This document shows, one piece after another, positions 2,149 through 23,990 of a stretch of 38,684 nucleotides of DNA. The translations under genes and the position numbers were made by a program. Source of the DNA: Rhodospirillales bacterium (GTDB taxonomy: Bacteria; Pseudomonadota; Alphaproteobacteria; Rhodospirillales; Defluviicoccaceae); assembly GCA_007694935.1 (NCBI GenBank), contig REES01000052.1, positions 1 through 38,684 on the forward strand, in the 5' to 3' direction. Numbering within the stretch: the first letter of the stretch is position 1; every line of letters starts with the position of its first letter. The notes below the pieces were generated by a model. It did not search any database, was not told the DNA's origin, and saw only the letters and a program-made list of their open reading frames with translations.

Positions 2149-4061
2149 CGTGGTGGGCCTCCCCAGGCTCGTTGGATGGTGCTGATGGTGGACGTCGCGC
2201 GGCCGGGTGCCAGATGGGCGCGGACCCGATGACCTCCGCCCAGGTCGATCATCGCCATGGCTTCGCCGTTCACGCCGAACGGTGCCGGCCAAGCGCGTGG
2301 ATCGGAAGCCCGCCCGTCCATCAGGGCGGCGAAGTTCAGGCGGCGGTCCGGGTCCGGGAACGGCACCGCTGCAAGCAGCGCCCGGGTGTACGGATGAACA
2401 GGCTGGCGGAACAGCACCTCCCGCGGCGCCTCTTCCACCAGTTGCCCGGCGCACATCACCGCGATGCGTTCGGCCATGTAATCCACCACCGCGAGGTTGT
2501 GGGAGATGAACAGATAGGTCAGTCCCAGTTCCTTCTGGAGGTCCTTGAGCAGGTTCAGGATCTGGGCCTGCACCGAGACATCCAGGGCGGACACCGGCTC
2601 GTCGCAGATCAGCAGCTCCGGCTGCAGGGCGAGGGCGCGGGCGATGCCGATCCGCTGGCGCTGTCCGCCGGAGAAACTGTGCGGATAGCGGGACAGATGC
2701 CGCGGATCCAGCCCCACCACCCGCATCAGCTCGGAAACCATCTCCCGCCGCTCGTCGGCGGTGCCGATGCGGTGGATCACCAGCGGCTCGGCGATCAGGT
2801 CGAACACCGTCATCCGGGGGTTGAGGGAGCCGAACGGATCCTGGAACACGTACTGAACGCGCCGGCGGAACATCGCCAGCTCGCGCGGTGCAAGGGACAG
2901 CACATCGATCGGGCCGTCCTCGCCGTGGAAGGTCACCCGTCCGGCATCCGGGGTCACGGCGCGCATGACGATCTTGCTGACCGTGGTCTTGCCGCAACCG
3001 CTCTCGCCCACCAGCCCGAGGCAGGAGCCCCGCGGAACCCAGAAGCTCACGTCGTCGACGGCAAGGTTCTCGTGGGCGGTGCCGGTGCGGAAGATCCCCG
3101 CCCGCTTGCGGGTGGTGAAGCTTTTGGAGATGCCGTCGACCTCCAGCAGTGGCTCACCCTTGCCGCCGGTGCCGGGCCGCTTGGCCGCCAGCAGGCGGCC
3201 GGTCTGGTAAGCGATCTCCCGCAAAGGGGTCAGCCGCTCGCCCGGCTTCATGTCAAAGTGCGGCACGGCGTTGAGCAGCGCCCGGGTGTACGGATGCCGC
3301 GGCTGGCCGAAGATGTCCTGCAGGGTGCCGCTTTCCATCACCCGGCCGTTGTACATCACCACCACCTCGGTGGCGACGTTGGCGACCACCCCGAGGTCAT
3401 GGGTGATCAGCAGCAACGCCATCCCCAACTCCACCTGAAGGTCCTGGATCAGCTTCAGGATTTGCGCCTGGATGGTGACGTCCAGGGCAGTGCTCGGCTC
3501 GTCGGCGATAAGCAGGGCGGGCCGGCAGATCAGCGCCATCGCGATCATCGCCCGCTGGCGCAGCCCGCCCGACAGCTCGAACGGATAGGTGTCGTAGGCG
3601 CGTTCCGGGTCGGGAAACCCGACCATGCGCAGCATTTCGATGGTGACCCGTCGGCCCTTCCACAGGCTCATGGTGCGATGCAGGTGCAGCGCCTCGCTGA
3701 TCTGGTCGCCGATGGTATGCAATGGCGAGAGCGAGGTCATCGGCTCCTGGAAAACCATCGAGATGCGGTTGCCGCGGATGCTGCGGTACTGCGGGCTGGC
3801 CGGATCCAGGTGGGCGAGGTCGATAACGTCGCCGGACCCGCCCGGATCGGCGAGCAGGATCTCGCCGGCGGTGATGCGGGCGGTGCGCGGCAGGATGCCG
3901 AGAATGGCCTGGGCGGTCACCGACTTGCCGGAGCCGGATTCCCCGACCAGGGCGACCGGCGACCCCGGCCGCACCCGGAACGACAGTCCGTCCACTGCCC
4001 GGACTACTCCGGCGCGGGTCTGGAACTCGACCCGGAGGTCGCGGACCTGCAGCAGGTCCAT
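2145..4061 (-). CDS. Double-domain ABC importer ATPase (DppD-DppF fusion, YejF-like architecture)
   Basis: Cytoplasmic energy-coupling subunit with two complete nucleotide-binding domains in one chain of about 638 residues. Domain 1 has Walker A GESGSGKS near residue 41, an LSGGLRQR signature, [12 protein letters not shown] and THD. Domain 2 has [34 protein letters not shown] and SHN. Both keep the catalytic Glu and switch His, so both look active. The HPYTRALL segment typical of the oligopeptide ATPase C-terminal region follows each domain. At DNA level it gives a 23-base identical repeat exactly 900 bases apart (2374-2396 and 3274-3296). An ATG at 4061 overlaps the upstream stop by one base (TGATG). 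A GTG just before it, at 4064, is an equally possible start. The C-terminal tail of about 60 residues beyond domain 2 is unassigned. Confidence 0.93.
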
Positions 4062-4570
4062 CACCGGCCGCGCTCCTGGGCTTGGGCGGCGGGGGTATCG
4101 AGGCCGAGGGTATAGAGGTTGTGAAGGGTGGCGGTATCCAGGGCAATGCCGTTTCGGTGTGCGGCAGCGGCGGCGCAGGCGGCCAAGTGGTCGAACCCAT
4201 CCAGCCGTGAGTCGACGCTGATGCTCTCCCCATGCCCCCGCAGGCGGAGCTGGAGCCAGCCGCCGGAACGGTCGCGCCGGGTGGAGTAGTGGCTGAGCTT
4301 AAGCTGCTCGAGATCCCGCCAAGCCAAGCCGGTGGCGGCGACGCCGATACTGCGAATGCCGTCGTCGCTGACCTCAAGGCGGGTGAGGTGGCGGCGCGCG
4401 GTGATCACAGCGTAGCCGGCGAATAACGCGGCGGCGGCGGCCAGAGCCACGGTAACCGGCGGCGCCGTGTCGCCGAAGGCGAGCGGCAACCCGACCAGCG
4501 ACAAACCGGCGGCGGCACGCAGCAGGTCGCCCGCGACTGCGCCCGCCGGGTAGCGGTGGCAGGTGGTCAC
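4061..4570 (-). CDS. Small membrane protein of unknown function (two helices plus PH-like soluble part)
   Basis: I do not recognise a named family. The 169-residue protein starts at a GTG (4570-4568) that overlaps the deacetylase stop as GTGA. A longer in-frame reading to 4696 would run deep into that gene and is rejected. Residues about 17-33 and 39-57 are hydrophobic, giving a helical hairpin. After a basic TARRHLTR linker comes a beta-rich stretch: LEVSDDGIRSIG, LAWRDLEQLKLSHY, then GGWLQLRLRGHGESISVDS. This pattern resembles bacterial PH-like membrane proteins. The end is Ala-rich and helical. It lies between a carbohydrate deacetylase and an importer ATPase and is translationally coupled to both, which argues for a role in the same pathway. 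That role is not known. Confidence 0.75.
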   Translation of the reverse strand: MTTCHRYPAGAVAGDLLRAAAGLSLVGLPLAFGDTAPPVTVALAAAAALFAGYAVITARRHLTRLEVSDDGIRSIGVAATGLAWRDLEQLKLSHYSTRRDRSGGWLQLRLRGHGESISVDSRLDGFDHLAACAAAAAHRNGIALDTATLHNLYTLGLDTPAAQAQERGR

Positions 4571-5361
4571 GCGGGGGCACCCCGCGGATCGCCCTGGATT
4601 GCGCCCGCGGGCCAGAATGCTTCCCTGGCATCCAGCCACCGCACCGCCGGATGGCGGCGGGTGGCGCCGAGAAAGGCATCGATGAACCGCCAGCATCCCT
4701 CGTCATGGAAGCCGTGGTGGGTCATCAGTCCCGTCGGCTCGTCGGCATCCGCCGCTTCCTCCCGCCGGGCCCGGAGATGCTGCAGGACTTGGCCCAGCGC
4801 GCCGCCGTCACCGACGAAGCCGCCGGTACCGTGCCAGTCCATGATGTCCACATGGACGTTGGTGCGGCGCACTCCGGGGGCGGGCTCCGCCCCCTCCCGG
4901 GGGCCCAAGGTCGAAACCCCGTGGAGGCCGGCCTCTGGCAGTTGGGGCAGCAACTCGGGGTCCATGCGGTTCCACGGCGCTACCAGCACCGGCAGGGCCT
5001 GGGGGAGGTCGGCGATGCGGAGCCAGCCCTCCGCCAGTTCGGCCAGCATGACCTCGCGCCGGCGATGCGGCCCGTATTCTTCCTGGCGCACTCCTTCGGG
5101 AGCATGATTGGCGTGGGCATAGCCATGCTGGAGGGCAGCAGCCTGCGGGCAGCCGGCCAGCAGCGGCGCCAGGGTGGAGTCGGCACCGCGCGGAATGACC
5201 GCGAGCGCCACCGGCACGCCGTGGCGCGCACTGATGTGCAGCAGATGCGCCAGCGCCGGGCAGTCCCGGGTGGCATCATCGTCCCGCCACCACAGGGTCG
5301 CTTGCCGCCCTGCGGCCGACCAGGCGTCCAGCTCGCGGTGCAGGTCGTCCCAGTCGGCCAC
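4567..5361 (-). CDS. Polysaccharide deacetylase (NodB fold) family protein
   Basis: Predicted carbohydrate esterase family 4-type deacetylase of 264 residues. It starts at the GTG 5361-5359, 4 bases after the upstream glycosyltransferase stop at 5366. A longer reading to 5514 would overlap that gene heavily. The expected motifs are in order: LWWRDDDA (residues 23-30, motif 1 Asp pair), QHGYAHANH (78-86, metal His pair), LVAPWNRMDP (126-135, R/P-W motif 3) and LMTHHGF (212-218, the late Leu-x-His motif). No signal peptide is present, so it would act in the cytoplasm. This fits N-deacetylation of a lipid-linked or nucleotide-linked sugar made by the neighbouring glycosyltransferases, not cell-wall trimming. 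The exact substrate is unknown. Confidence 0.85.
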   Translation of the reverse strand: MADWDDLHRELDAWSAAGRQATLWWRDDDATRDCPALAHLLHISARHGVPVALAVIPRGADSTLAPLLAGCPQAAALQHGYAHANHAPEGVRQEEYGPHRRREVMLAELAEGWLRIADLPQALPVLVAPWNRMDPELLPQLPEAGLHGVSTLGPREGAEPAPGVRRTNVHVDIMDWHGTGGFVGDGGALGQVLQHLRARREEAADADEPTGLMTHHGFHDEGCWRFIDAFLGATRRHPAVRWLDAREAFWPAGAIQGDPRGAPA

Positions 5362-5365
5362 GCGA

Positions 5366-6523
5366 CTACGCTCCCCGTCCCCGGCACAGAGCGGCGATCT
5401 CCCGCGCTGTCGCAGCAGCGCCGTCGAGGTTGACCGGGATCGTGGTCGGCGGCTTGCCGAGCGTCGCATCGACCGCGGCGGCCAGGGACTGCGGCGACAG
5501 CCGGGCGGGGTCAACCACGGTCATGACACCTTTCCCCGCCAGGATGGCTGCGCGGAGCGCCTGCTCGGTCTCATTGCCGTCAGCAAACGGAACCACCACC
5601 GCCGGAACTGCCACCTGCAGGATATCCACGATGGTATTGTACCCGCCTTGAGAGATGGAGAGAACGCAGTTCCTCAGCAGATTCGGGAGGTCGGCGCGCC
5701 AGCGCTCGACGATCACCCCCGGCGGGGGGTCGAACAACAGCTCCCCGTACACCGGATCGGCCAGGCCCGGCCCACAAACCAGGCGCCACGGCAGGGTGGC
5801 AGCACGAGACAACGGACGCGCCGCCAGCGCGCACCGCAGCAGCGGCTCCCCCACCGCGCCACCGCCGGCGGAGACGATCACTTCTCCGCGACCGCTCTCG
5901 AAGATCGGAGGGGCGGGGTTGGGCCGCGGCTCCGTGGCGTAGCCGGTGTAGCGGAGCATGTCGGCCAGGTCGCGGGCTTCCGGAAACGAGGCCTCGAGCG
6001 GGATCAGGGTGGGATCGCCATGCACCAGGATGCGATGAAACCAAGCCTTGGCAAGGGTCACCATTTCCCGGCGTCGTGCCGGGTCGGACTTCCGGACCAG
6101 CACGTCGCGCAGCGAACACACCACCGTCGGCGCCGGCGTCGCCACCCGGGCCCGCGCCAGCAGGGGCATCAGTTCGAACCGGAAGGCGTTCCGACCGAAC
6201 GGGAACTGCTCGATCAGCAAAACATCCGGGCGGACCGTTGCGAACTCGTACAGCAGGCGCGACAGCCGCGCCTCCTTGATCGCATCATCGATCGGTGCGC
6301 CGTGCTCGTCGACCAGGGACTGGAAGCTCGCGTCGGCGGCGCGGATCGGTGGCAAGGCGATGCGGGCACAGCCGTCGAATGCGACCCCGGGCACGGCAGG
6401 ACCGCCCAGCACCACCCAGACCTCAAGGCCGTGAGCGGCCATCGCCCGGGCCAGGATCGCCGCCCGCTTGAGGTGGCCGATCCCCAGTAGATGCTGGGCA
6501 TAGAACATCACCCGACCGGTCAT
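5366..6523 (-). CDS. MurG-like predicted glycosyltransferase (COG4671 type), copy 1
   Basis: Predicted GT-B glycosyltransferase of 385 residues. The start ATG at 6523-6521 overlaps the upstream stop as ATGA. The N-terminus reads MTGRVMFYAQHLLGIGHLKR, the characteristic first strand and Gly-His loop of this family. The C-terminal half has the GT28-like donor-site region SISQGGYNTIVDILQ, followed by VVVPFADGNETEQALRA, which binds nucleotide-sugar in MurG-type enzymes. A VVCSLRDVLV segment lies near the middle. There is no membrane segment, so it probably acts at the inner face of the membrane. It resembles the product at 8887-10116 in plan, so the operon carries two related enzymes of this type. 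Donor and acceptor cannot be read from sequence. Confidence 0.87.
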   Translation of the reverse strand: MTGRVMFYAQHLLGIGHLKRAAILARAMAAHGLEVWVVLGGPAVPGVAFDGCARIALPPIRAADASFQSLVDEHGAPIDDAIKEARLSRLLYEFATVRPDVLLIEQFPFGRNAFRFELMPLLARARVATPAPTVVCSLRDVLVRKSDPARRREMVTLAKAWFHRILVHGDPTLIPLEASFPEARDLADMLRYTGYATEPRPNPAPPIFESGRGEVIVSAGGGAVGEPLLRCALAARPLSRAATLPWRLVCGPGLADPVYGELLFDPPPGVIVERWRADLPNLLRNCVLSISQGGYNTIVDILQVAVPAVVVPFADGNETEQALRAAILAGKGVMTVVDPARLSPQSLAAAVDATLGKPPTTIPVNLDGAAATAREIAALCRGRGA

Positions 6524-7644
6524 GCCGGCACCCTGGTCCCGCCCACGGCCTCGAGCACCGCGCCGAGGCGGGCGGTCGCCACCGGCAGAACGTGTTGGCG
6601 GCGCACCCGCTTCCATGCAGCCCGGCCCAGCCGCCGCCGGGCTGCGGGGTCGTCCAGCACGTGTGCCACCGCCACCGCGAACGCCGCGGCGTCGCCTGCG
6701 GCGACAACGACACCGCTCTCCCCATCCGCGACCACATCCGGGACGCCGCCGCTGCGGCCCGCCACCACCGGCAGGCCGGCCGCCTGGGCCTCCAACAGGG
6801 CGAGACCGTAGGCTTCGTTCACTGCCGGCCACAGGAAGGCATCGGCGGTGCTGAGGAGTTCGGGCAGCGCTTCCGGCGCCACCTGGCCCAGCCAGGTGAC
6901 CCGATCGGCGATGGCGGCCAGGGCCACCCTGACATCATCGCGGGCGGGGCCGTCCCCGACCACCGTGAGCCGCCATGGCCGGTCGACGAGACGGCCGAGC
7001 GCTTCGCCGAGAATCCGGTAGGAGGCGAGCTTGTCGCCCGGACGCATCATCGCCACCGTGATCAGCCGGGGCGGCGACGCCGGGGTCGGGCGTCGGTTGG
7101 TCGCGGCCGTGCGAAACGGGGCCGCATCGATGAAGGGGGCCAGCCGGACCAGCCGGTCGCCGTCACCGGCCAGCAGGCGGAGGCAGGGCAGGTCAGCGGA
7201 GTTGAGCGCGATCACCCGGTCGGCGCCGGCGATGGCGTCTGCTGCGGCCCGGTGCCCGAGCGCCCAGGGGCCGCTTGCCTGCTTCGGCGCATGGGAGGCT
7301 TCGGCCACGACATAGGGAATGCCGAGCCTGGCCGCGATCGTCGGCCCCAGCCAGTCCGGGGCCTTGTGGTACAGGTGATAGGTGAACCACAGCTCCGGGC
7401 GGTCCGCCCGCGGGCGGGCTTCCAGCCGCCGGACCATCCGTGCCGCCAGTGCCCGTCCCAGTCTGGCGAGCCGTAGCTGCCGCAGGGCATCGCCGGACCG
7501 GTCGTAGCTGCAGAACATCGATGCCACCGCCACCCCATGACCGCCCTCGCCAAGCGCCCGGATCAGCAGGCGGGCCATCGTCCGATCCCCGGAGGGGACC
7601 GGGTGCTGAGGCGGCTTCATCGGCGCGTAGAAGGCGATGCGCAT
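6520..7644 (-). CDS. GT4-family glycosyltransferase
   Basis: Retaining GT-B glycosyltransferase of 374 residues. The N-terminus MRIAFYAPMKPPQHPVPSGD is a standard GT4 acceptor-domain start, with the GDR loop. This supports the ATG at 7644, which gives a 28-base overlap with the upstream gene. The alternative ATG at 7620 would make a neat ATGA overlap but would lose the first beta strand. The donor domain shows LITVAMMRPGDKLASYRIL, then LTVVGDGP. The NEAYGLALLEAQAAGLPVV motif near residue 275-295 carries the EX7E nucleotide-sugar-binding pair. No transmembrane segment is seen. It sits third in the coupled glycosyltransferase run and probably adds one sugar of the same glycan. Confidence 0.9.
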   Translation of the reverse strand: MRIAFYAPMKPPQHPVPSGDRTMARLLIRALGEGGHGVAVASMFCSYDRSGDALRQLRLARLGRALAARMVRRLEARPRADRPELWFTYHLYHKAPDWLGPTIAARLGIPYVVAEASHAPKQASGPWALGHRAAADAIAGADRVIALNSADLPCLRLLAGDGDRLVRLAPFIDAAPFRTAATNRRPTPASPPRLITVAMMRPGDKLASYRILGEALGRLVDRPWRLTVVGDGPARDDVRVALAAIADRVTWLGQVAPEALPELLSTADAFLWPAVNEAYGLALLEAQAAGLPVVAGRSGGVPDVVADGESGVVVAAGDAAAFAVAVAHVLDDPAARRRLGRAAWKRVRRQHVLPVATARLGAVLEAVGGTRVPA

Positions 7645-8885
7645 CGCTCTGGTGCCGGCTGCGGCAGCCCGAACCGGGCCGCCAGGCAGTCGATCCCCTG
7701 CTCGAACGGGAAATGGTTGCGTACCCGCGCCATGCCCGCTGCCCCAATCCGGGCGCGCAGCGCCGGATTGCGGATCAACCGTTCCAGCGCCGCGGTCAGG
7801 GTCGCCGGGTCATCGGCCGGCACCAGGATGCCGGTCTCTCCGTCGAGGATCAGTTCGGGGATCGCGGCCACCCGCGTCGCCAGGCAAGCCAGTCCCTGGC
7901 TCTGCGCTTCCATCAGCACGTTGGGAAGCCCGTCCCGGTCACCGTCGGCGGCCACCCGGGAGTTCAGCACGAACAGGTCGGCAGCCCGGTAGCGGGCGAT
8001 CACCTTCTCCTGCGCCAAGGCACCCATCCACTGGATGTGGTGCGCAATCCCGGCTTCGTCCGCGGCCTTCTGCAATGCTTTCAGGCGTGGACCGCCGCCG
8101 ACGTGCACGAAGCGCCAAGCCAGCCCCTGGGGCAGAGCGGCCAGTGCCCGCAGCATCCCGTCATAGCCCTTCTTCTCCACCGCCCGTCCGACCGAGAGGA
8201 TGGTCACCGGTTGATCCGGGTCGCTGCCGTCGCGGAAGGATGGGGGACGCACCGGCAGCGGGAAGCGGGCGAGGTCGAGACCGTGGTAGATGAGGCTGAT
8301 TCGCGCCGGGTCCGCCGCCACGGTGGCAAGGTGGTCGGCATTGTATCGGGAGCAGGTCACCAGCCAGCGGCAATCCCGGAGCTTCTCCCGCTTCTCCCAG
8401 TCGGGAATGGTCCAGACATCCTTGGCATGGGCGGAGACGCTCCAAGGCAGTTCGCGGATCAACGCGGCGTACCGGGTTACCGAGGCCGGCGTGTGCAGGA
8501 AGTGGGCATGCAGCCAACCGATATCCGATGGCAGCTCATGGGCCAGAACCAGCGCCTGGCCGAACCGGCGGATCCGGTTGCGCGTGGGATCGCGCTTGAG
8601 ATCACCGATCCAGACGGCACGCGCCCGACGGTACCCGGGCCACCCTCGTACCACCCGCCAAGCCTTCGCCACCCGGCCGGGTTGATCGTGCAGGTATTCC
8701 GGCAGATAGCTGACCGGCGCCAGGATCTCCCGGTGGACCGGATGGACCGCCGGGTCGGTCGGACGGCGGAGCGAGAACAGGCGGACGGCGAGGCCCCGCT
8801 TCTCCAGGGCGCGAATCTCCTGAGCGATGAACGTTTCGGACAGGCGCGGGTAGCCCTTGAGAATGATGGCGACAACAGCGTCCAC
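7617..8885 (-). CDS. GT4-family glycosyltransferase (colanic-acid-type)
   Basis: GT-B glycosyltransferase of 422 residues. It starts at a GTG (8885-8883), one base after the upstream stop at 8887. The start reads VDAVVAIILKGYPRLSETFI, the 'YPRxSETFI' opening typical of exopolysaccharide GT4 enzymes such as the WcaL/AmsK group. The donor domain has TILSVGRAVEKKGYDGMLRA, then FVHVGGGP. The region DRDGLPNVLMEAQSQGLACL contains the EX7E-type pair, and GETGILVPADDP follows. A W-H-A-H-F-L-H stretch near residue 125 belongs to the acceptor domain. It is soluble. The neighbours make it one step in assembling a surface oligosaccharide or glycolipid. The sugar is unknown. Confidence 0.9.
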   Translation of the reverse strand: MDAVVAIILKGYPRLSETFIAQEIRALEKRGLAVRLFSLRRPTDPAVHPVHREILAPVSYLPEYLHDQPGRVAKAWRVVRGWPGYRRARAVWIGDLKRDPTRNRIRRFGQALVLAHELPSDIGWLHAHFLHTPASVTRYAALIRELPWSVSAHAKDVWTIPDWEKREKLRDCRWLVTCSRYNADHLATVAADPARISLIYHGLDLARFPLPVRPPSFRDGSDPDQPVTILSVGRAVEKKGYDGMLRALAALPQGLAWRFVHVGGGPRLKALQKAADEAGIAHHIQWMGALAQEKVIARYRAADLFVLNSRVAADGDRDGLPNVLMEAQSQGLACLATRVAAIPELILDGETGILVPADDPATLTAALERLIRNPALRARIGAAGMARVRNHFPFEQGIDCLAARFGLPQPAPERCASPSTRR

Positions 8886-8886
8886 G

Positions 8887-10116
8887 TCACAGCGTCGCAG
8901 TCATGGCCGGTTTCCGGGCAGGCGCTCCGTGATTGGTTCGAAGCATCGCGTTGATCATCCCGTTGATCACGTCGAGGCCGTCGAGAAGGCCCGGCATCTC
9001 CACCGACGATGGCCGCGGCTGGTGCGGCAGGGCGTCGATCGCCGCCGCCATCACCGCCGGATCACGATCGCCGTCCACCGCCAGCATCCGAACCAGGCCG
9101 AGCGACTGGCCCCGCGACGCCCGGATGAACTGCTCGGCCCGCGGCACCGAGCGCGGCATGATCAGCGCCGGTTTGTCGAACGACAGGATCTCGCAGAAGG
9201 TATTGTATCCGCCCATGGCGATGATCCCGGCCGACGCCGCCATCAGGCTTTCGACATGGGCGTCGAACACGATCGCCTGGACCCGGTCGCCGAGCCTGCC
9301 GGCGCGTTCCATGAACGCCGCCTGATCGGCCGAACGCATGAACGGTCCCAGCACGATGAGCGCGGGGTGCTCGATCCCCGCATCGTGCTCGTAGGCCTGC
9401 AACACCCAGTCGACCACCTCGGCCCCGTCGCCGCCGCCGCCGGTGGTGACCAGGATGTAGGGCCTTCCCCCGAGCGCGGCGAGCGGATGGGCCGGCCGCT
9501 CCACCGGAGAGACCGAGCGCCGGAGGTATCCGGTGTAGCGGACCTTGCGCAGCACCCCCGGCGGCAACGGCAGGCCCTCGAGCGGATTGCACACCGCCGG
9601 AAGGCCGTACACCCAGAGCTCGTCGTAAAAGTCGGCCAGCGCCGGCAGGGCATTCTTGCGCTGCCACTCCTCGGCCAGGACCCGCGGCTCATCCATCACG
9701 TCGCGCAAGCCCAGGATCAGCGGCGTGCCGTTGGCCTTGAGCATCGTCAGCGTTTCCCGGACCTCGCCGCGCAGGCCCCAGGGTTCCTTGTCCACCAGGA
9801 AGATGTCGGGCGCGAAGGTCTCCGCCGTGTGTTGGATGATCGAGGCACGCAGGTGCAGCGTCTCCTCGATGCCGATATCCAGGCTCAATGGCTCATAGTC
9901 GCCGTGGCGAAGCTTGATCACGCCGGGGATGCGCACGAAATCGACACGGTTGCGGAAACCGAAGCTGCCGATGATCGGCGAGCCCGACAGGATCAGCACC
10001 GACAGGTCCGGCTGGGCGCCGACCAGTGCATGGGCGATGGTCCGACACCGCCGCAGGTGGCCAAGGCCGAACGAATCGTGGCTGTAGATCAGAATCCTTC
10101 GGTGCCGTTGCCTCAT
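8887..10116 (-). CDS. MurG-like predicted glycosyltransferase (COG4671 type), copy 2; first gene of the minus-strand operon
   Basis: Predicted GT-B glycosyltransferase of 409 residues. The ATG at 10116 is chosen because the next residues, RILIYSHDSFGLGHLRRC, are the conserved family start. A further 21 in-frame codons upstream look like non-coding leader. The C-terminal domain has YILVTTGGGGDGAEVVDW, and IIAMGGYNTFCEILSFDKPA corresponds to the MurG donor-binding loop. PRSVPRAEQFIRA completes the site. It heads the run of nine minus-strand genes and faces the FkbH-like gene across 262 non-coding bases, where the promoters of both arms should lie. It is a second enzyme of the same class as 5366-6523. 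The two are divergent in sequence, so they probably use different acceptors. Confidence 0.88.
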   Translation of the reverse strand: MRQRHRRILIYSHDSFGLGHLRRCRTIAHALVGAQPDLSVLILSGSPIIGSFGFRNRVDFVRIPGVIKLRHGDYEPLSLDIGIEETLHLRASIIQHTAETFAPDIFLVDKEPWGLRGEVRETLTMLKANGTPLILGLRDVMDEPRVLAEEWQRKNALPALADFYDELWVYGLPAVCNPLEGLPLPPGVLRKVRYTGYLRRSVSPVERPAHPLAALGGRPYILVTTGGGGDGAEVVDWVLQAYEHDAGIEHPALIVLGPFMRSADQAAFMERAGRLGDRVQAIVFDAHVESLMAASAGIIAMGGYNTFCEILSFDKPALIMPRSVPRAEQFIRASRGQSLGLVRMLAVDGDRDPAVMAAAIDALPHQPRPSSVEMPGLLDGLDVINGMINAMLRTNHGAPARKPAMTATL

Positions 10117-10378
10117 GCCCGTTCTCGTGTCCCGCCCGCCTGGTCGGTTAGCGTATTCTACCCCGGGAGCGCAAGGCATGCGATGTCGCCGTGATCAACT
10201 TGATGAGAGGGGGAGTGCAGGGGCCGGCGACAACACCGACATGCTTTGCAAACGACCGCCAGTCACCGGGCGGCGACATTGGCATCCATGATTTCGCTGA
10301 CGGCAGACAACGGGCCGGCAGTACGGTTGCGGTCGCCATGGTGCGGGGTGGACCAACCTCGGGAGAAGTCGCGGACGC

Positions 10379-12262
10379 GTGTTCGAATTCGATCAATATG
10401 AGCCTTCCCGGCATTCCGGGCCCCGACTGACGGGGCCGCCGGGCTACCGGCCGCTCGATGGCGTGGCCGATGTGTCTTTCATGGCCTGGGGCGAGCACTG
10501 TATCGAGTGCGCCGACCCGGGCTGCTATCAGTCATGCGCGCTCTATCAAGCCCGTCCCGACGGCCGCTGCCGCCGGTTCGCCTACGGCATCTTCAAGAAT
10601 CGGCGGTTTCGAGGGGTTCGCGGCTACGGTGCGGAAGTCACCTTCAAAACCTGGGGCAAGCTGGAGGCGGAGGGCAATGCCTTCATGGAGCCGCTCGCCG
10701 CGGTCCTCCGACGGGAGCGCTTGGTCGCCTGGGGCGGCGGGTCGATGCGGGTGGCGGCATCGCTCACCTCCCCCCTCATCGCGCCGGGGCGGTGGCGGGA
10801 TTGGCCGCCACCGCCGCGAAAGATCGCAAGGCGGCTGCATCGGGGCACGTCGGGTTCAGGTCTTCCCGACGCCTTCCTGATCGAGGTGTTCAACCCGGCG
10901 GACCGGCCGGTCACCCTCCAGCTCGAGATGCGCGCCGTCGGCGATGACGGTGCCGGCGGCGCCTTCCTAGGGCCGCCGCCCTTCCTGCACCGGATCGGAC
11001 TGCCGCCGGGGTTCTTTCGGACCTGCATCGAAGCGCATCGCTTCCGCCACATCCTGGCGTCCGGCCATCGGTTCAAGATCTCGGTGATGCCGGAAGCGGA
11101 ACAGTCCATCACCCTTGTCTTCCTCGCCCTCGATTTTGTCCGGATGGCCAAGCCCGTCCCGGCGGATGCGCCGCGGCCGGCACCGGGCAAGGCCGCCGCC
11201 GCCAAGTGCGTCGTCTTCGATCTGGACGGAACCCTTTGGGACGGAGTGCTTGCCGAGGGTGCGGGAGTGGCGCTGCGCGCCGGTGTGCCCGGGTTGTTCC
11301 GCGACCTCGATGCCCGGGGCATCCTGATCAGCGTCGCCAGCAAGAACGATCACGCGGAGGCCTGGGCCAGGCTTGAGGCGTTCGGGCTCGCCGACTACGT
11401 GCTGCATCCCCGAATCGGCTGGGGCCCGAAGAGCATCGCCCTTTGCGAGATTGCTGCGGCCCTGGACATCGGCCTCGATACCTTCGTGTTCGTCGACGAC
11501 AGCCCGTTCGAACGGGCGGAAGTGGCCCGCGCCCTGCCCGCGGTGGAATGCCGGGACGCCACCGAACTCGGCGGGCTGGCCGATCATCCTCGCCTCTGCG
11601 GCAGCGACAGCAGCGAAGCCGGCCGCCGCCGCCAACTCTACCGGGAAGCCATCCGGCGAGACCAGGAACGCCGCACCTGGGGCGATGACTATCTTGGTTT
11701 TCTCGCCGCGTGTAACATGGAGTTAACAATCCGGCCGTACCAGCCAGGGGACTTCACCAGGGTGTCGGAGCTCGTCCAGCGGACCAACCAGCTCAATTTT
11801 TCGGGGCGGAAGTACGCCCCGGACGACCTCTCCCGCCGCCTCGATGATGTTGGCACCGAAAAGCTCGTGCTCACCTGCCGCGACAGGTATGGCGACCATG
11901 GCACCGTCGGATTCGCGCTGGTGGCCCGGTCCGCCGGCACGGTTGCCGTGGATGACCTGATGCTCTCCTGCCGCGTGCAGGGGCGGATGATCGAGGCCGC
12001 GTTGTTCCGATGCCTGTGGGACCGCATGCCGACGGGGCACCGTCGGCTCTGGGTCAGGCTCTCCGCGACCGGGCGCAACCGGCCAGCCCATCAGGTGCTC
12101 GAACAGCTCGGGTTCCGGCCGGAAGCCGGCGGCGACGGGTACGTCATTGAGGAAGCGGCCGGCCTGCAGGTTGCGGATGTCATCACCGTTTGCAGCAGTC
12201 TGGACGGGGCGCCGCCGGCCGAGCCGGCCAATGCTGCCCGTGCCTGCGACGGCCCGACCTGA
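10379..12262 (+). CDS. FkbH-like HAD-IIIC / GNAT protein with an N-terminal cysteine cluster
   Basis: A 627-residue multidomain protein starting at GTG 10379, with a GGGAGAAG ribosome-binding sequence about 10 bases upstream. Residues 41-64 hold C41, C44, C49, C53 and C64. The C-x2-C-x4-C-x3-C spacing resembles iron-sulfur or zinc motifs. Residues about 160-255 look like a beta-sandwich. Residues 277-420 are an HAD domain of the FkbH class: CVVFDLDGTLWDGV (motif I with both Asp), VASKND (motif II region) and FVDDSPFERAEV (motif IV). Residues about 445-590 are a GNAT-like domain (MELTIRPYQPGDF...RTNQLNFSG), as in FkbH. Known FkbH proteins load a glyceryl unit from 1,3-bisphosphoglycerate onto an acyl carrier protein. 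No carrier protein is visible here. The cysteine-bearing N-terminal part is not part of classical FkbH. Confidence 0.85.
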   Translation: MFEFDQYEPSRHSGPRLTGPPGYRPLDGVADVSFMAWGEHCIECADPGCYQSCALYQARPDGRCRRFAYGIFKNRRFRGVRGYGAEVTFKTWGKLEAEGNAFMEPLAAVLRRERLVAWGGGSMRVAASLTSPLIAPGRWRDWPPPPRKIARRLHRGTSGSGLPDAFLIEVFNPADRPVTLQLEMRAVGDDGAGGAFLGPPPFLHRIGLPPGFFRTCIEAHRFRHILASGHRFKISVMPEAEQSITLVFLALDFVRMAKPVPADAPRPAPGKAAAAKCVVFDLDGTLWDGVLAEGAGVALRAGVPGLFRDLDARGILISVASKNDHAEAWARLEAFGLADYVLHPRIGWGPKSIALCEIAAALDIGLDTFVFVDDSPFERAEVARALPAVECRDATELGGLADHPRLCGSDSSEAGRRRQLYREAIRRDQERRTWGDDYLGFLAACNMELTIRPYQPGDFTRVSELVQRTNQLNFSGRKYAPDDLSRRLDDVGTEKLVLTCRDRYGDHGTVGFALVARSAGTVAVDDLMLSCRVQGRMIEAALFRCLWDRMPTGHRRLWVRLSATGRNRPAHQVLEQLGFRPEAGGDGYVIEEAAGLQVADVITVCSSLDGAPPAEPANAARACDGPT

Positions 12263-12315
12263 GCCGCATGCACGCCCCTCCCGGCCACTGCCCGCGGCGA
12301 CGGCGCTGAGCCGAT

Positions 12316-14943
12316 ATGGAACCGACCTTCTTCCGCTACATCCTCCGCCATAGCTGGCGGCAGCAGATCTTTCTGCTCGTCCTCACCGTCGCGTCGTTTC
12401 CGTTCCTTTACTTCTCGTTGGAACTGCCCAAGCGGATCATCAACGACGCCATCGGCGCGACCTTGTTCCCCCGCGAGGTGCTGGGTCGCGAGTTCTCCCA
12501 GCTGGAATACCTTTGGTTCCTTTGCCTGATCTTTTTGGTGCTGGTCGGCATCCGTTTCGGCCTCCGCTACTACGTCAATGTCTATAAGGGACAGCTCGGC
12601 GAGCGCATGCTGCGCCGCCTGCGCTATGAGCTGTTCAGCCGGATGCTGCGGTTCCCCCTGCCGCATTTCCGCAGAGCCTCCCAGGGGGAGATGATCGCGA
12701 TGATGACCGGCGAGGTGGAGCCGCTTGGCGGCTTCATTGGCGATGCCATCGCCCTGCCGGCGTTCGAAGGCGGCACCCTGCTCACCATCCTGTTCTTCAT
12801 GTTCATGCAGGACCCGGTGCTGGGCTTCGCCGCCATCGCTTTGTTCCCGGTCCAGATCTACGTCATCCCGAAGCTGCAACGGCAGATCAACGCTCTGGCC
12901 AAGGAGCGGGTGCGGACGGTGCGCAAGCTGTCGGAGCGGATCGGCGAGGTGGTGACCGGCATCGAGGACGTCCACGCGCACGACACCTCCGAACTGGAGC
13001 GGGCCGATTTCGCCCGTTGGACCGGCAAGATCTATGACATCCGCTACAAAATTTACCGGAAGAAATTCTTCGTCAAGTTTCTCAACAACGTCATCGGCCA
13101 GATCACCCCGTTCTTCTTCTTTTCCATCGGTGGCTACCTGGTGATCACCGGTGACCTCACTTTCGGGGCGCTGGTCGCCGTGCTGGCCGCCTACAAGGAC
13201 GTGGCCGCACCCTGGAAGGAGATGTTGAACTGGTACCAGCAGAAGGAAGACACCCGCGTCAAGTACGAGCAATTGGTGGAGCAGTTCATGCCGGCCGGGA
13301 TCATGGAGGACAGGCTGCAGGCGCTCCCGGACGGTCCGGTGCCGCACCTTTCCGGCAATCTCGTCGCCAGCAACTTGTCCTATGCGGAGGATGAAGGCAT
13401 CAAGGTGGTGGACGGTATCAGCTTCTCCTTCCCGCTCACCGCGCGAGTCGCCCTGGTCGGGCGCGAGGGGTCTGGCCACAGCGTGGTGGCGAAGCTGATC
13501 GCCCGTCTGCTCACCCCCACCACCGGGTCGATCCGGATCGGCGGGACCGATCTCGCCACTCTTCCCGAGTCGGTCACCGGACGGCGCCTCGCCTACGTCG
13601 GGCAATCCCCCGCGATGTTTCAGGGATCGCTTCTGGACAATCTCCTTTATGGCCTCAAGCATCAGCCGGTTCGCCCCGCCGGTCATGACGGCGAGGCCAA
13701 GCTGCGCTTCGAGCGGTACTTGAGGGAGGCCATCGCCGCCGGCACCACCACCAGCGACCTTGAGGCGCACTGGATCGACGACGGCAGCGGCGATGGCGAG
13801 CCGGTCAAGGCGCTTGCCGAGCACATCGCCGCCGCGTTGGACGTCGCGCAACTGGAGCCGGACATCTTCGGCTTCGGGCTGCAGGCGACGTTCGACCCCG
13901 AGAGCAGGCCGGAACTGGCGGAAAGCGTGCTCGCGGCACGCAACGTCCTGAAACAGCGTCTGGATGAACCGAAGTACCAGGGGCTGGTCGAGCCGTTCGA
14001 CCGCGACCGATACAACACCAACATGACGGTGGCGGAAAACATCATGTTCGGCACCCCCGTGGGACGGGACCTCGATCTCGAACACATTGCCGAGAACCCG
14101 TATATGCGGGCGGTCCTGGAGGCGTCCGATCTGCTGGATGAGTTCCTCGCGCTGGGTCTGCAAGCGGCGCGGCTGACGGTGGAACTGTTCCGTGACGTTC
14201 AGCCGGGCGACCCTATTTTCGAGCGGTTCAGCTTCGTCGACATGGAAACCCTGCCCGACTACCAGGGGGTGGTGCGCCGCGCCGATGCGGTCGGCACGGG
14301 CGCGCTCTCGCCAAGCCATCGCGATATGCTGCTGGCCTTGCCGTTCAAGCTGATACCGGCACGCCACCGCCTGGGCCTGCTGGACCGGGACAACGAGCGG
14401 AAACTGCTGCAGGCGCGCCAGCGTTTCGCCGAAGGGCTGCCGGCCCATCTCCGCGGTTCGGTCGCCTTCTTCGACCCGGCCCGGGTCAATCGCGCCGCGT
14501 CGGTGCAGGACAACATCCTGTTCGGCCGTTTCGTCTATGGGAAGCAGCAAGGCCAGCGAGCGGTCGGCGCCCTGATCGCCGAGGTCATCGACGGTTTGGG
14601 CCTCCGTAGCGCCATCCTCGACCTCGGTCTCGAGGCCGAGGCGGGGATCGCCGGCAGTCGTCTGTCGGCCGGTCAGCGTACAAGGCTCGCCATCGCCCGG
14701 GCATGGCTGAAGCGTCCGGACCTGCTCATTCTTGATCAGGCCACCGCCAACCTGGATGCGGCGACCCATGCCACCATCATGAGAAAACTCCTGGACGAGC
14801 GGGGGGGCGCTGGCCTTCTATGGGTGCTGACGGAGGGAGCGGACACCCAGGCGTTCGATCGGGAGATGGTGATGGAGCAGGGACGCCTTGCCCACCGGGC
14901 CATGCCGGACCAGGCCGCGCCTCGCTTTTCGGCCTCGGGATGA
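12316..14943 (+). CDS. ABC exporter with degenerate, expanded nucleotide-binding domain
   Basis: An 875-residue half-transporter. Residues 1-300 are a type-I exporter membrane domain: helices near 17-33, 65-82, 150-165, 168-183 and 262-278, with a basic coupling segment RMLRRLRYELFSRM. Residues 345-860 are the ATPase domain, about 300 residues longer than normal. Walker A reads GREGSGHS (382-389), so the ATP-binding Lys is His388. The signature is LSAGQ (783-787). Walker B LLILD (803-807) is followed by Gln808 in place of the catalytic Glu. The switch His is Glu840 (VLTEG). The segment between Q-loop (Gln430) and signature contains three copies of the post-Q-loop motif: SLLDNLLYG (438), TVAENIMFG (571) and SVQDNILFG (729). 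The reading frame is intact, so this is not simple decay. Its 3' end overlaps the cyclic-nucleotide-binding gene. Confidence 0.9.
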   Translation: MEPTFFRYILRHSWRQQIFLLVLTVASFPFLYFSLELPKRIINDAIGATLFPREVLGREFSQLEYLWFLCLIFLVLVGIRFGLRYYVNVYKGQLGERMLRRLRYELFSRMLRFPLPHFRRASQGEMIAMMTGEVEPLGGFIGDAIALPAFEGGTLLTILFFMFMQDPVLGFAAIALFPVQIYVIPKLQRQINALAKERVRTVRKLSERIGEVVTGIEDVHAHDTSELERADFARWTGKIYDIRYKIYRKKFFVKFLNNVIGQITPFFFFSIGGYLVITGDLTFGALVAVLAAYKDVAAPWKEMLNWYQQKEDTRVKYEQLVEQFMPAGIMEDRLQALPDGPVPHLSGNLVASNLSYAEDEGIKVVDGISFSFPLTARVALVGREGSGHSVVAKLIARLLTPTTGSIRIGGTDLATLPESVTGRRLAYVGQSPAMFQGSLLDNLLYGLKHQPVRPAGHDGEAKLRFERYLREAIAAGTTTSDLEAHWIDDGSGDGEPVKALAEHIAAALDVAQLEPDIFGFGLQATFDPESRPELAESVLAARNVLKQRLDEPKYQGLVEPFDRDRYNTNMTVAENIMFGTPVGRDLDLEHIAENPYMRAVLEASDLLDEFLALGLQAARLTVELFRDVQPGDPIFERFSFVDMETLPDYQGVVRRADAVGTGALSPSHRDMLLALPFKLIPARHRLGLLDRDNERKLLQARQRFAEGLPAHLRGSVAFFDPARVNRAASVQDNILFGRFVYGKQQGQRAVGALIAEVIDGLGLRSAILDLGLEAEAGIAGSRLSAGQRTRLAIARAWLKRPDLLILDQATANLDAATHATIMRKLLDERGGAGLLWVLTEGADTQAFDREMVMEQGRLAHRAMPDQAAPRFSASG

Positions 14944-15431
14944 GGAGCGCCGACGTGTTATACGGCGATGTGATCTCGATTCTGCGCGGGATCCCTCTGT
15001 TTTGCAGGCTGGAACCGGCCAAGTTGAAACTGCTGGCGTTTTCCAGTGCCTACCTCACCTGCGAGCCCGGCGAGGCGCTGTTTCATGAAGGCGAGCCCGC
15101 GGACGCTGCCTTCGTGATCCGAAGCGGCGAAGTGGAGGTGGTGAGCGGAAAACCCGGGGACGAGGTGGTCCTCGGCACCCTCGGCAAGAACGATTTGTTC
15201 GGCGAGATGGCGCTGATCCTCAATGAGCCGCGCTCCGCCACCATCCGCGCGGTCGGCCCGCTCGAAGTGGTCAAGATCGATGCGGATGTCTTCCTCCGCC
15301 TGGTGACGGAGAATCCCGAAACCGCCTTGGCGGTGATGCGGTCCCTCAGCGAAAAGATCGTCCGCCTGACCGAGCGCTACAATCGCTTGCAGCATCGCCT
15401 TCAGGATCCTGAACCGACGGGCGAGCCCTGA
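14940..15431 (+). CDS. Stand-alone cyclic-nucleotide-binding domain protein
   Basis: A 163-residue protein that is essentially one CRP-type cNMP-binding domain. The ATG at 14940 overlaps the ABC exporter stop as ATGA, so the two are translationally coupled. Residues 12-40 form the entry helices. The beta-roll follows: GEALFHEGEPADAAFVIRSG. The phosphate-binding cassette FGEMALILNEPRSATIRA (87-104) has the Gly-Glu pair and the Arg that contact ribose and phosphate in cAMP receptors. A helical tail (about 125-155) follows, with no DNA-binding helix-turn-helix. It is therefore unlikely to be a transcription factor. A role as a cAMP- or cGMP-responsive subunit of the upstream transporter is inferred from coupling alone. 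Confidence 0.9.
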   Translation: MRSADVLYGDVISILRGIPLFCRLEPAKLKLLAFSSAYLTCEPGEALFHEGEPADAAFVIRSGEVEVVSGKPGDEVVLGTLGKNDLFGEMALILNEPRSATIRAVGPLEVVKIDADVFLRLVTENPETALAVMRSLSEKIVRLTERYNRLQHRLQDPEPTGEP

Positions 15432-15638: not shown

Positions 15639-17507
15639 ATGTTTATAGTCGAACCGACATTCCACATGTGGGCGACGTTCGCCGTCATCGGGCTCACCCT
15701 CGCTCTCTACGCCACCGAGAAGGCCCCGATGGAGGTCATCTCCATGGGGGTGGTGGCAATCCTGATGCTGCTGTTTCAGATTTTCCCGCTGCCGGGGCCG
15801 ACCGGGGAGAATCTGCTGGGCCCTTACCCGCTCCTGCGAGGCTTCGCCAATCCGGCGCTGGTGACGGTGCTGGCGTTGCTGGTGATGGGCCAGGGCATGG
15901 CGCGGGCCGGGCTGCTGGACGTCCTGGCCCGGGCCGTATTCCGGCTCGGCGGCGGCCACCGGCTGGCATCAGTCGTGCTGGTGCTGGCGGTGGCGATCGT
16001 GGTCAGCGCGTTTCTCAACAACACGCCCGTCGTCATCATGTTCATTCCGATCATGCAGGCACTGGCCAGCCGGTTCCAGCTCGCGCCGAGCAAGCTGATG
16101 ATTCCTCTCAGCTATGCCGCGATCCTGGGCGGCATGACCACGCTGGTGGGCTCCAGCACCAATCTGCTCGTCAATTCGGCGATGGTTGCAAAGGGGGTGA
16201 CGCCATTCACGTTTTTCGAGTTCACCATGCCCGGCACCATCCTGGCCGCGGCGGGACTGGTCTACGTCATATTCGTCGCGCCCTACCTGTTGCCGAGCCG
16301 CTCGCGGCTGGCGGATACTTGGTTCGGTAGCGGCGGACGACAGTTCATTGCCCAGCTCTCGGTGACACCCGGATCACCGCTGATCGGCCGCGGCGCACCG
16401 GGCGGGCTGTTCGCCAGCCTTCCCGATGTCACCGTCCGCATGGTGGTGCGCGGAGAAGAAGCCATTCTGCCGCCGTTCGAGGGTTATGTGGCCGAGGCTG
16501 GCGACGTCCTGGTGGTGGCGGCATCGCGCCGGACCCTGACCGGCCAGACGGTGCGCCGCCAGGGGCTGATGCCACCGGATGTTCCGGTCGCCGGACGCGT
16601 CGGCGGCAAGCCTGTCCCCCAGACCGAGGGGGAGACACCCTGGGGCGAGACCGGCCAAGTGGTTGCCGAGGTGATGGTGGCACCGGCTTCCCGCTTCGAG
16701 GGACAGACTCTCCGCCAGATTGCCTTCCATCACCAGACCCGTTGCGTGGTGCTCGGCATCCAGCGCCGGTCGCGGATGATCCGCACCAGGATGACCGATA
16801 TCCGCCTGGAAGCCGGTGACGTGCTGCTGGTGCAGGGGCAGGCGGCGGACGTCAATGCCCTAAAGGCCAACCGGGACGTGGTGCTGATCGAATGGTCGGC
16901 GGAAGAACTGGCCGCCACCAAGGATGCGCCGATCGCCGCCGGCATCTTCGTCTTTTCGATCGGCATTGCCGCCGCCGATTTGTTGCCGCTGGTGGTCACC
17001 ACCCTGATCGGTGCGGTCGCCATGGTCGCCCTCGGGGTGCTCAATGTCCGTCAGGCGAGCCGGTCGGTGGATCCCCGCATCGTCACCATGATCGGCGCCG
17101 CACTGGCCCTGAGCCTAGCGCTGGAGGCCACCGGCGGCGCCCGTTACCTGGCGATGACGCTGATTACAGCCCTGGAAGGTGCGAGCCCGGTGGTGATGCT
17201 CTCGGTGTTTTTCCTGTTCGCGGCGGCGACCACCAACATCATCAGCAACAATGCCGTTGCCGTTCTGTTCACCCCCATCGGCATCGACATGGCGTTCCAG
17301 CTTGGCCTGCCTCCTCACGCCTTTGCCGTTGCCATCGTCTTCGCCGCCAGTTGCGCGTTCGCGTCACCGATCGGCTACCAGACCAACTTGCTGGTGCTGG
17401 GGCCCGGCCACTACCGCTTCATGGACTTTGCCAAGGCCGGGATTCCGCTGCTGCTGCTGATCTGGCTGGTGTTCACCCTGGTGGTGCCGTGGTGGTACGG
17501 CATCTGA
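15639..17507 (+). CDS. SLC13/DASS-family anion permease with two RCK_C (TrkA-C) domains
   Basis: Inner-membrane transporter of 622 residues. Two membrane halves flank a soluble insert. The first half carries AFLNNTP (124-130) and the SSTNLL motif (172-177). The second half carries NIISNNAVAVLFTP and, near the end, ASPIGYQTNLLVLGP. These paired Asn-Thr hairpins are the substrate and Na+ sites of the divalent-anion symporter family. The insert (about 230-410) holds two RCK_C domains, each ending in an AGDVLLV-type strand (AGDVLVV at 287-293, AGDVLLV at 392-398). RCK_C-bearing members are often annotated as sulfate or other anion permeases. The substrate cannot be fixed here. The gene stands 207 bases after the cNMP-binding gene and probably has its own promoter. 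Confidence 0.88.
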   Translation: MFIVEPTFHMWATFAVIGLTLALYATEKAPMEVISMGVVAILMLLFQIFPLPGPTGENLLGPYPLLRGFANPALVTVLALLVMGQGMARAGLLDVLARAVFRLGGGHRLASVVLVLAVAIVVSAFLNNTPVVIMFIPIMQALASRFQLAPSKLMIPLSYAAILGGMTTLVGSSTNLLVNSAMVAKGVTPFTFFEFTMPGTILAAAGLVYVIFVAPYLLPSRSRLADTWFGSGGRQFIAQLSVTPGSPLIGRGAPGGLFASLPDVTVRMVVRGEEAILPPFEGYVAEAGDVLVVAASRRTLTGQTVRRQGLMPPDVPVAGRVGGKPVPQTEGETPWGETGQVVAEVMVAPASRFEGQTLRQIAFHHQTRCVVLGIQRRSRMIRTRMTDIRLEAGDVLLVQGQAADVNALKANRDVVLIEWSAEELAATKDAPIAAGIFVFSIGIAAADLLPLVVTTLIGAVAMVALGVLNVRQASRSVDPRIVTMIGAALALSLALEATGGARYLAMTLITALEGASPVVMLSVFFLFAAATTNIISNNAVAVLFTPIGIDMAFQLGLPPHAFAVAIVFAASCAFASPIGYQTNLLVLGPGHYRFMDFAKAGIPLLLLIWLVFTLVVPWWYGI

Positions 17508-23337: not shown

Positions 23338-23386
23338 GGTACCCCCGGCACGCGCGGCACGGCCGGACGTTCGTTGACGAAGTTGT

Positions 23387-23406
23387 GCGGCCGGCTGCGC
23401 GGCCGC
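23387..23406. terminator. GC-rich hairpin between convergent amylase and ftsB genes
   Basis: Perfect 7-base stem GCGGCCG/CGGCCGC with a 6-base loop, placed 50 bases after the amylase stop and just outside the ftsB stop. No T-run follows on either strand, so termination is only suggested by position. Confidence 0.3.
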
Positions 23407-23408
23407 GT

Positions 23409-23744: not shown

Positions 23745-23782
23745 GTCCGCCTGCGCCGCTTCTGCCGGCGCTTCTCAACAGT

Positions 23783-23983: not shown

Positions 23984-23990
23984 CGATTGC

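Follow-up and report, generated by a model that had tools for sequence, protein, structure and literature searches.

The DNA analysed here (the window, a stretch of 38,684 nucleotides of contig REES01000052.1 from a Rhodospirillales bacterium) contains, at positions 12,316 to 14,943, a gene for an ATP-binding cassette (ABC) exporter half-transporter whose nucleotide-binding domain (NBD) departs from the canonical ATPase at several catalytic positions. The gene overlaps a second one, which encodes a cyclic nucleotide monophosphate (cNMP) binding protein. As described below, the departure is not peculiar to this gene: none of the relatives that we aligned retains a complete catalytic set. The features of the two genes are as follows, where aa stands for amino acids and ORF for open reading frame.

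12316..14943, + strand: putative pseudo-ABC exporter half-transporter, 875 aa (open frame, domain matches and alignment)
12316..13290, + strand: transmembrane domain (TMD), aa 1-325 (PF00664; the best-conserved part of the family, with 53.1% mean identity and a ratio of non-synonymous to synonymous substitution rates, dN/dS, of 0.05)
13459..13482, + strand: degenerate Walker A, GREGSGHS, aa 382-389 (Lys replaced by His388)
14662..14676, + strand: signature LSAGQ, aa 783-787
14722..14739, + strand: Walker B LLILD, followed by Gln808 where Glu is expected
14830..14832, + strand: switch-His position, occupied by Thr839 (alignment with relatives keeping ‘HR’)
14940..15431, + strand: cNMP-binding domain protein (PF00027, E 6.7e-25; the mechanical ORF starts at 14820)

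A domain scan of the window protein returned ABC_membrane over aa 66-290 (PF00664, E 3e-24), which is also present in 14/14 members of set A1, together with a split ABC_tran. An earlier, sequence-only reading of this DNA had proposed that the Walker A Lys is replaced by His388 and the catalytic Glu by Gln808, that the LSAGQ signature and the D-loop are retained, that some 350 residues separate the Q-loop from the signature, and that the 875-codon frame is open and maintained. All of these statements held: GREGSGHS is seen at 382-389, LLILD is followed by Gln with Asp807 retained, LSAGQ lies at 783-787 with the D-loop Asp814 present, the distance from Q430 to S784 is 354 residues, and the frame is open from 12316 to 14943 with a dN/dS of 0.16 against its nearest relative, L038. 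Its placement of the switch His at Glu840 was off by one residue, the position being Thr839 when aligned with relatives that have ‘HR’ in that strand. We scored eight catalytic positions (the Walker A Lys, the Mg-binding Ser/Thr, the Q-loop Gln, the signature Ser and Gly, the Walker-B Asp, the catalytic Glu and the switch His). The window protein, in which Ser389, Gln430 (Q-loop), LSAGQ, Asp807 and the D-loop Asp814 are retained, keeps five of the eight and is one of the least decayed members of its family. An open frame of 892 aa runs antisense to the transporter gene (12091-14769, - strand); we treated it as an artefact, probably of high G+C content, because both the homologs and the G+C content by codon position point to the plus strand.

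The family is widespread. A phylum-wide search of 398 genomes gave matches at E values up to 1e-60 in 28 of them, and a class-wide search (the class being taken as Alphaproteobacteria) gave matches in 131/385 genomes and 87/277 genera, the genome count including some fragments and matches to the TMD alone. The class was assigned from relatives that carry names in a different collection, such as Thalassobaculum litoreum and Rhodospirillales metagenome-assembled genomes. Members were aligned first as a set of 42 and then as a set of 65, the window protein counted in. For loci L081-L108, a longest-ORF rule yielded a usable frame in 23 of 28 and the other five were left out; the TMD-only L035 and L050 were excluded from both alignments, and L039 and L048 are incomplete because they run into contig ends. 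Residue counts on the 65 rows are unweighted and include near-identical rows, while variability percentiles are weighted.

The complete set of eight catalytic residues was found in 0/65 aligned members. The maximum is five, reached by ten members, and six members have none. Position 388, the Walker A Lys, is K in 35 members, R in 12, A in 11, H in 2, G in 2, and T, N and S in one each; position 808, the catalytic Glu, is E in 35, R in 12 and Q in 6, with others in the remainder. The Mg-binding Ser/Thr position is E in 27, D in 16 and S or T in only 11 of the 65. The switch His is kept in 19/65 members, the Walker-B Asp in 14/65 (Asn standing at position 807 in 43/65), the Q-loop Gln (Q430) in 8/65 and the signature Gly in 16/65, while the D-loop Asp persists in 58/65. 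In the NBD core, the ATP-contact positions 389, 430, 786, 808 and 839 have variability percentiles of 64 to 91, while N733, G737, G780 and R795 are almost invariant. On these alignments, the loss of the complete catalytic set is family-wide. Homologs with canonical Lys, Glu and His, which would have pointed to local decay in this genome, were looked for among the 65 members and none was canonical. On the other hand, His388 (2/65) and Gln808 (6/65) are not family-wide residues; because they vary across the family, the pattern at the ATP site is one of relaxed constraint rather than a fixed alternative chemistry.

As a control we used an MsbA-like exporter of the same genome, which was searched for in 30 family-bearing genomes chosen from the phylum and class searches, and to which its own copy was added (31 sequences). 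All eight catalytic residues are present in 31/31 control exporters. Their mean identity is 34.3% in the TMD and 59.4% in the NBD, whereas the 65 family members show 53.1% in the TMD, 39.4% in the NBD core and 38.9% in the insert; for 29 genome-matched family members the values are 51.8, 37.3 and 36.3%, respectively. The order of conservation between TMD and NBD is inverted relative to the control exporter. For the single pair formed by the window gene and L038, the TMD has a dN/dS of 0.054, against 0.157 and 0.21 for the two parts of the NBD and 0.24 for the insert. Judged from that one pair, purifying selection appears to hold each measured region, the TMD most strongly. That the gene could instead be a recent pseudogene which has lost catalysis was considered, given that it lacks several catalytic residues; the overall dN/dS of 0.16, the same non-canonical state in all 65 aligned members and the presence of the family in 131/385 genomes rule out such local decay for practical purposes.

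The same residue counts bear on whether the protein might be the degenerate half of a heterodimeric exporter, with a canonical partner half providing a single functional site in the manner of TmrAB or TAP. As far as is known, the degenerate half of heterodimeric exporters keeps the Walker A Lys, whereas in this family the Lys, the Ser/Thr, the Q-loop, Walker B and the signature all vary. Degenerate nucleotide sites are indeed common in heterodimeric and full-length exporters, according to the accessible part of PMC7756269. Yet no canonical exporter half was found in 20/25 scanned candidate neighbours in the window (the other 61 loci were not individually checked), and the same-genome matches spanning TMD and NBD are only 20-28% identical and lie on other contigs. 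We consider this arrangement very unlikely.

Between the Q-loop and the signature, the NBD carries an insert whose length is close to constant: the stretch 448-712 measures 265 aa in 23/42 members, with a range of 254-337. Profiles and a structural model divide the region into three units.

13588..13962, + strand: candidate helical-subdomain unit 1, aa 425-549 (true Q-loop, Asn442, Arg542)
13987..14433, + strand: candidate helical-subdomain unit 2, aa 558-706 (Asn567, Asn575, Arg701; extra helices at about 633-678)
14461..14709, + strand: candidate helical-subdomain unit 3, aa 716-798 (Asn733, Gly737, signature helix with Arg795)

Profile-profile comparison matched segments 553-712 and 706-812 (2 with 3) at E 2e-13 and 98% probability, segments 418-556 and 553-712 (1 with 2) at E 1.4e-06 and 90%, and segments 418-556 and 706-812 (1 with 3) at E 2.2e-05 and 76%. 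The corresponding scores of 78, 42 and 34 exceed the maximum of 19-21 reached in 60 column permutations per pair. One control pair, 803-865 against segment 3, scored 28.8 and was set aside for its overlap at 803-812; the other control pairs, eleven in number, scored 8.6-16.3. An almost invariant Asn marks each segment (63, 65 and 65 of 65), and an almost invariant Arg the last helix of each unit (R542 in 65/65, R701 in 65/65 and R795 in 64/65). The three copies of the post-Q-loop motif described by the sequence-only reading are thus real: they begin at 438, 571 and 729, and their Asn residues are 442, 575 and 733. That the insert might be an unrelated domain was also checked and is not supported, the segments being related by profile, and the earlier view of the insert was not refuted. 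Compared as profiles, the last helices of units 1 and 2 match each other (p1-p2, E 5.3e-05) and gave no match with the signature helix (p1-p3, E 0.25; p2-p3, E 0.028); that they correspond to it would follow from the shared Arg and from the order of helices in the model.

In the model of the NBD (aa 330-866; predicted local distance difference test score, pLDDT, 82.2; predicted template modelling score, pTM, 0.76), the succession of a strand, the Asn helix, further helices and the Arg helix is seen three times. Units 1 and 2 contain additional helices, and the stretch around aa 449-495 is poorly predicted. The helical subdomain therefore looks triplicated, copy 1 holding the true Q-loop and copy 3 the true signature. 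Superposed on the NBD of ComA, the model gives a Z score of 26.4 and a root-mean-square deviation (rmsd) of 2.1 over 226 residues, a result with which other exporters tie; the NBD within the full-length model gives Z 24.6 and rmsd 2.0 over 233 residues. The full-length model likewise matches exporter structures. The NBD is predicted to be a folded domain with a worn active site.

The probable ATG of the cNMP gene (14940-14942) overlaps the stop codon of the transporter gene (14941-14943) as ATGA. We looked for the same association in two sets of loci, both of them samples in which some contigs are short and near-identical species may be common to both. The first comprises 35 loci, 24 of which, besides the window, were picked from phylum-search matches; of 15 loci from the named collection, L045, L047, L048, L050 and L052 were left out. 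The second comprises 27 loci from the class search, under other genome handles. A cNMP domain is adjacent downstream or fused at 61/62 loci over the two sets. In the first, its ORF lies directly downstream in 27 and the domain is fused C-terminally in 8, the fusions being confirmed by Pfam (L064 and L066, as L025 and L027, and L065, L067, L080, L069, L077 and L079); in the second it is present at 26 loci, three of them fused, with the domain of L123, downstream of the end of the transporter frame, counted as adjacent. At the control exporter loci, a cNMP domain was found in 0/30, with flanks of up to about 1.5 kb covered. Among 35 cNMP domains, the acid of the phosphate cassette is present in 34 (E in 29, D in 5) and the Arg in 34; we take these two to be the ligand-binding residues. 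On these alignments conservation is much stronger at the cNMP site than at the ATP site.

An NBD is missing from the available sequence in seven rows that share the TMD. Five of these genes are listed here.

L073:8932-10197, + strand: TMD without ATPase domain, in a copper-resistance locus
L075:9516-10727, + strand: TMD without ATPase domain, in a copper-resistance locus
L050:7722-8984, + strand: TMD without ATPase domain, in a copper-resistance locus
L074:9543-10817, - strand: TMD without ATPase domain, in a copper-resistance locus
L111:2197-3276, - strand: NBD-less gene beside the family’s glycosyltransferase operon, in a 1.6-Mb genome

The loci of L073, L074, L075 and L050 encode a multicopper oxidase, CopB, an amino-acid permease and a heavy-metal P-type ATPase in 4/4 cases, and a cupredoxin in three of the four. 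L109 and L078 fall in the clade of these copper relatives (support 100/99) and have no visible copper operon: L109 has nothing beyond a distant match to a multicopper oxidase (32%, about 8 kb off), and the context of L078 is limited by its 3.2-kb contig. L111 groups with the copper relatives with support of 89/95; no NBD was found by tblastn within its 12 kb, and the next genes are housekeeping genes by eye. L110, a further TMD-only candidate, was dropped, its gene ending at the contig end. Only 1/5 own-genome exporters was included in the tree, and L111, L074 and L078 were flagged as long branches; the order of NBD loss is unsure because this single exporter outgroup sits on a very long branch.

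With and without an NBD, the transporters differ in the loops through which an exporter NBD contacts its TMD. We take residues 103-135 (intracellular loop 1, ICL1) and 200-250 (ICL2) to hold the two coupling helices.

12658..12708, + strand: predicted coupling-helix-1 segment, aa 115-131 (model helix 115-131; surrounding loop shorter in NBD-less relatives)
12958..12978, + strand: predicted coupling-helix-2 segment, aa 215-221 (model helix 216-221, between transmembrane helices TM4 and TM5; surrounding loop shorter in NBD-less relatives)

ICL1 is 33 aa and ICL2 51 aa in 64/64 full-length rows (one of the 65 being too short to count), and the coupling loops are shorter in 7/7 NBD-less rows. Six of these have an ICL1 of 28-29 and an ICL2 of 42-47, with gaps at F118-A121 and G215-V219. 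Because loop length is kept only where the NBD persists, we argue that the degenerate NBD still acts on the TMD; where present, it seems to remain coupled to it. Every row, with or without an NBD, has an acidic residue at positions 96, 133, 135, 295 and 302.

The alignments and models show that the complete catalytic set is lost throughout the family, that the predicted NBD fold is intact, the tandem units are related, the coupling loops are retained and the cNMP protein is associated, and that NBD-less relatives exist. We regard it as somewhat probable that this is a pseudo-ATPase ABC transporter, in which a dead NBD and the cNMP module regulate a TMD that is not driven by its own ATP hydrolysis. 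We infer the homodimer, the absence of hydrolysis, the gating by a cyclic nucleotide, the energy source and the substrate. In the mechanism that we propose, a type IV (exporter-fold) TMD dimer would keep a fully folded NBD attached through the coupling helices; the NBD would no longer hydrolyse ATP, having been rebuilt as a regulatory module with three tandem helical subdomains, and would act together with the cNMP protein from the overlapping gene, or with the C-terminal fusion in some relatives. On binding to the cNMP module, a small nucleotide signal would alter the NBD clamp, thereby opening, closing or biasing the TMD. The TMD might then move an envelope-related substrate, perhaps the product of neighbouring glycosyltransferases, downhill or with the energy of an ion gradient. 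More tentatively, and as a possibility rather than an expectation, the family may be a cyclic-nucleotide-gated, ATP-independent one standing between ABC exporters and NBD-less secondary transporters, with the pseudo-NBD as the transmission from sensor to a TMD that runs on an ion or substrate gradient and that was freed of its NBD at least once for use in copper operons. The sequence-only reading had suggested a non-hydrolysing, regulated transporter; this part fits, with 0/65 canonical members, and the interpretation as a whole is supported in part. The cNMP partner, the glycosyltransferase operon and the NBD-less relatives do not figure in it.

Several observations weigh against a regulated pseudo-ATPase. 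A partial catalytic set is common (Lys in 35/65, Glu in 35/65, His in 19/65, Walker-B Asp in 14/65), and not all catalytic positions are variable: Lys388 and Ser784 are of middling variability (47th and 48th percentile), Asp807 stands at the 21st percentile, and the Walker A glycines G382 and G387 are at the 15th and 12th. ATP could still bind the window protein, because Ser389, Gln430, LSAGQ and Asp807 are kept. Confidence in the full-length model is modest (pLDDT 69.5, pTM 0.60). L126 has no neighbouring cNMP gene, one of the two cNMP ligand residues is gone in L070 (the acid) and in L072 (the Arg), and the cNMP protein could be a regulator of some other neighbouring gene product. The loops of the NBD-less L111 are 32 and 49 aa, only 1 and 2 residues shorter than in full-length members. 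The shared acidic TMD positions are compatible with proton coupling but are no demonstration of it, and the glycosyltransferase operon described below is found in part of the family only.

Some of these points would suit an ATP-binding switch, in which ATP is bound without hydrolysis or with very slow hydrolysis, and the conformation is set by the ATP level, with or without a contribution from a cyclic nucleotide, somewhat as in ATP-gated ABC channels. The mostly retained Walker A glycines (G387 at the 12th percentile), the frequencies of Lys, Glu and the D-loop Asp (35, 35 and 58 of 65) and the Ser389, Gln430 and Asp807 of the window protein all speak for such a switch. However, the Lys position is occupied by Ala, Arg or Gly in large clades, the Mg-binding Ser/Thr is often Asp or Glu (E in 27 and D in 16, against S/T in 11), position 807 is Asn in 43/65 and position 430 is Gln in only 8/65. 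We hold an ATP switch to be rather unlikely.

The regulated pseudo-ATPase that we favour is best likened to known ABC exporters, because its fold and descent are theirs. With the type IV, ABCB-like exporters MsbA, PCAT1 and TM287/288 it has in common the TMD and NBD folds, the domain order, the coupling loops, the D-loop Asp and parts of the signature. It differs from them in the missing complete catalytic set (65/65), in an NBD less conserved than the TMD, and in having the helical-subdomain unit three times and a cNMP partner. CFTR and the sulphonylurea receptors retain one or more sites that work or bind ATP, and their regulation comes from phosphorylation or partner channels. They too use the ABC architecture for gating or regulation and not for pumping, as set out in the accessible part of PMC7756269.

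SbmA, which is related to ABC transmembrane domains, has no NBD, has lost its coupling helices and is driven by protons, according to the accessible part of PMC13316013. The likeness to SbmA/BacA (SLiPT) lies in an ABC transmembrane fold working without ATP, and the NBD-less relatives found here also have shortened coupling loops; unlike these, the window protein still has its NBD, so that only the NBD-less relatives match that trait. A profile of the seven NBD-less rows (A3), run against PDB sequences at E values up to 1, returned 26 matches, all of them ABC proteins and none SbmA. If they lie in the cavity, positions 133, 135, 295 and 302, acidic in all rows here, might be compared with the glutamate ladder through which SbmA would couple to protons. 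HetC, as far as the accessible part of PMC10986499 describes it, is an ABC exporter tied to a cNMP-fold sensor as here, this domain being N-terminal, required and able to bind ppGpp in vitro, and the protein also having a C39 peptidase and depending on a catalytic residue of its ATPase. In the present family the cNMP domain is instead downstream or C-terminal and the catalytic Glu is replaced; neither an N-terminal cNMP domain nor a C39 peptidase was matched in the window protein at E values up to 1. Because HetC binds ppGpp (same part of PMC10986499), a cNMP-fold domain that controls an ABC exporter need not bind a cyclic nucleotide. We regard SbmA and HetC as precedents for the proposed mechanism, although neither belongs to the present family. 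No paper on this family was found in the open-access literature by title and start of abstract, a search that does not exclude work outside it.

ABC proteins are defined by their motor, and this family keeps the shape of that motor and not its complete chemistry. If the proposal is right, the family would illustrate the route from a primary pump to a secondary transporter or channel under regulation. This transition can be tested with existing genomes, because they contain full-length, cNMP-fused and NBD-less forms. Proteins that are likely to be labelled as ATP-binding subunits of ABC transporters may not be ATPases.

Upstream of the transporter lies a divergent operon, the genes of which are listed here.

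8887..10179, - strand: GT28/MurG-like glycosyltransferase, first gene of the operon (below Pfam and NCBIfam cut-offs)
7617..8885, - strand: GT4 glycosyltransferase
6520..7644, - strand: GT4 glycosyltransferase
5366..6832, - strand: second GT28-like glycosyltransferase (true start probably inside the mechanical ORF)
4567..5514, - strand: conserved protein reading like a polysaccharide deacetylase (by eye; only DUF2334, E 0.12)

The relative of the first gene at L053 passes the Pfam cut-off. The operon also encodes an oligopeptide-type ABC ATPase. GT28a and GT4a are both present at 37/62 loci and neither at 20/62, which confines a plausible link to envelope glycans to one large section of the family. 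Of 22 loci in the first set, 14 have GT28a no more than 0.4 kb from the transporter, whereas the window and L038 have about 2.1 kb more in between. With this operon adjoining the transporter in much of the family and a TMD so strongly conserved, one might picture a structural scaffold that transports nothing and that anchors or organises envelope-glycan enzymes, relaying nucleotide signals to them. Against such a role, the coupling loops and charged TMD positions are kept, and the NBD-less relatives stand in copper loci, where those glycan enzymes were not matched; we think it quite improbable.

Between the operon and the transporter is a gene for an FkbH-domain protein (10379-12262, + strand). 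Within the operon, a 211-aa protein (4061-4696, - strand) has no Pfam match above noise and recurs at 9/35 and 12/27 loci. Directly after the cNMP gene lies a CitMHS/DASS-type transporter with a TrkA-C domain (15639-17507, + strand), and further downstream an alpha-amylase with an N-terminal CBM26 starch-binding module (21169-23337, + strand). A candidate TacA/GNAT toxin-antitoxin pair occupies 23385-24850 (+ strand), where a 315-aa ORF that ends in a TacA-like antitoxin domain precedes an ORF for a GNAT acetyltransferase.

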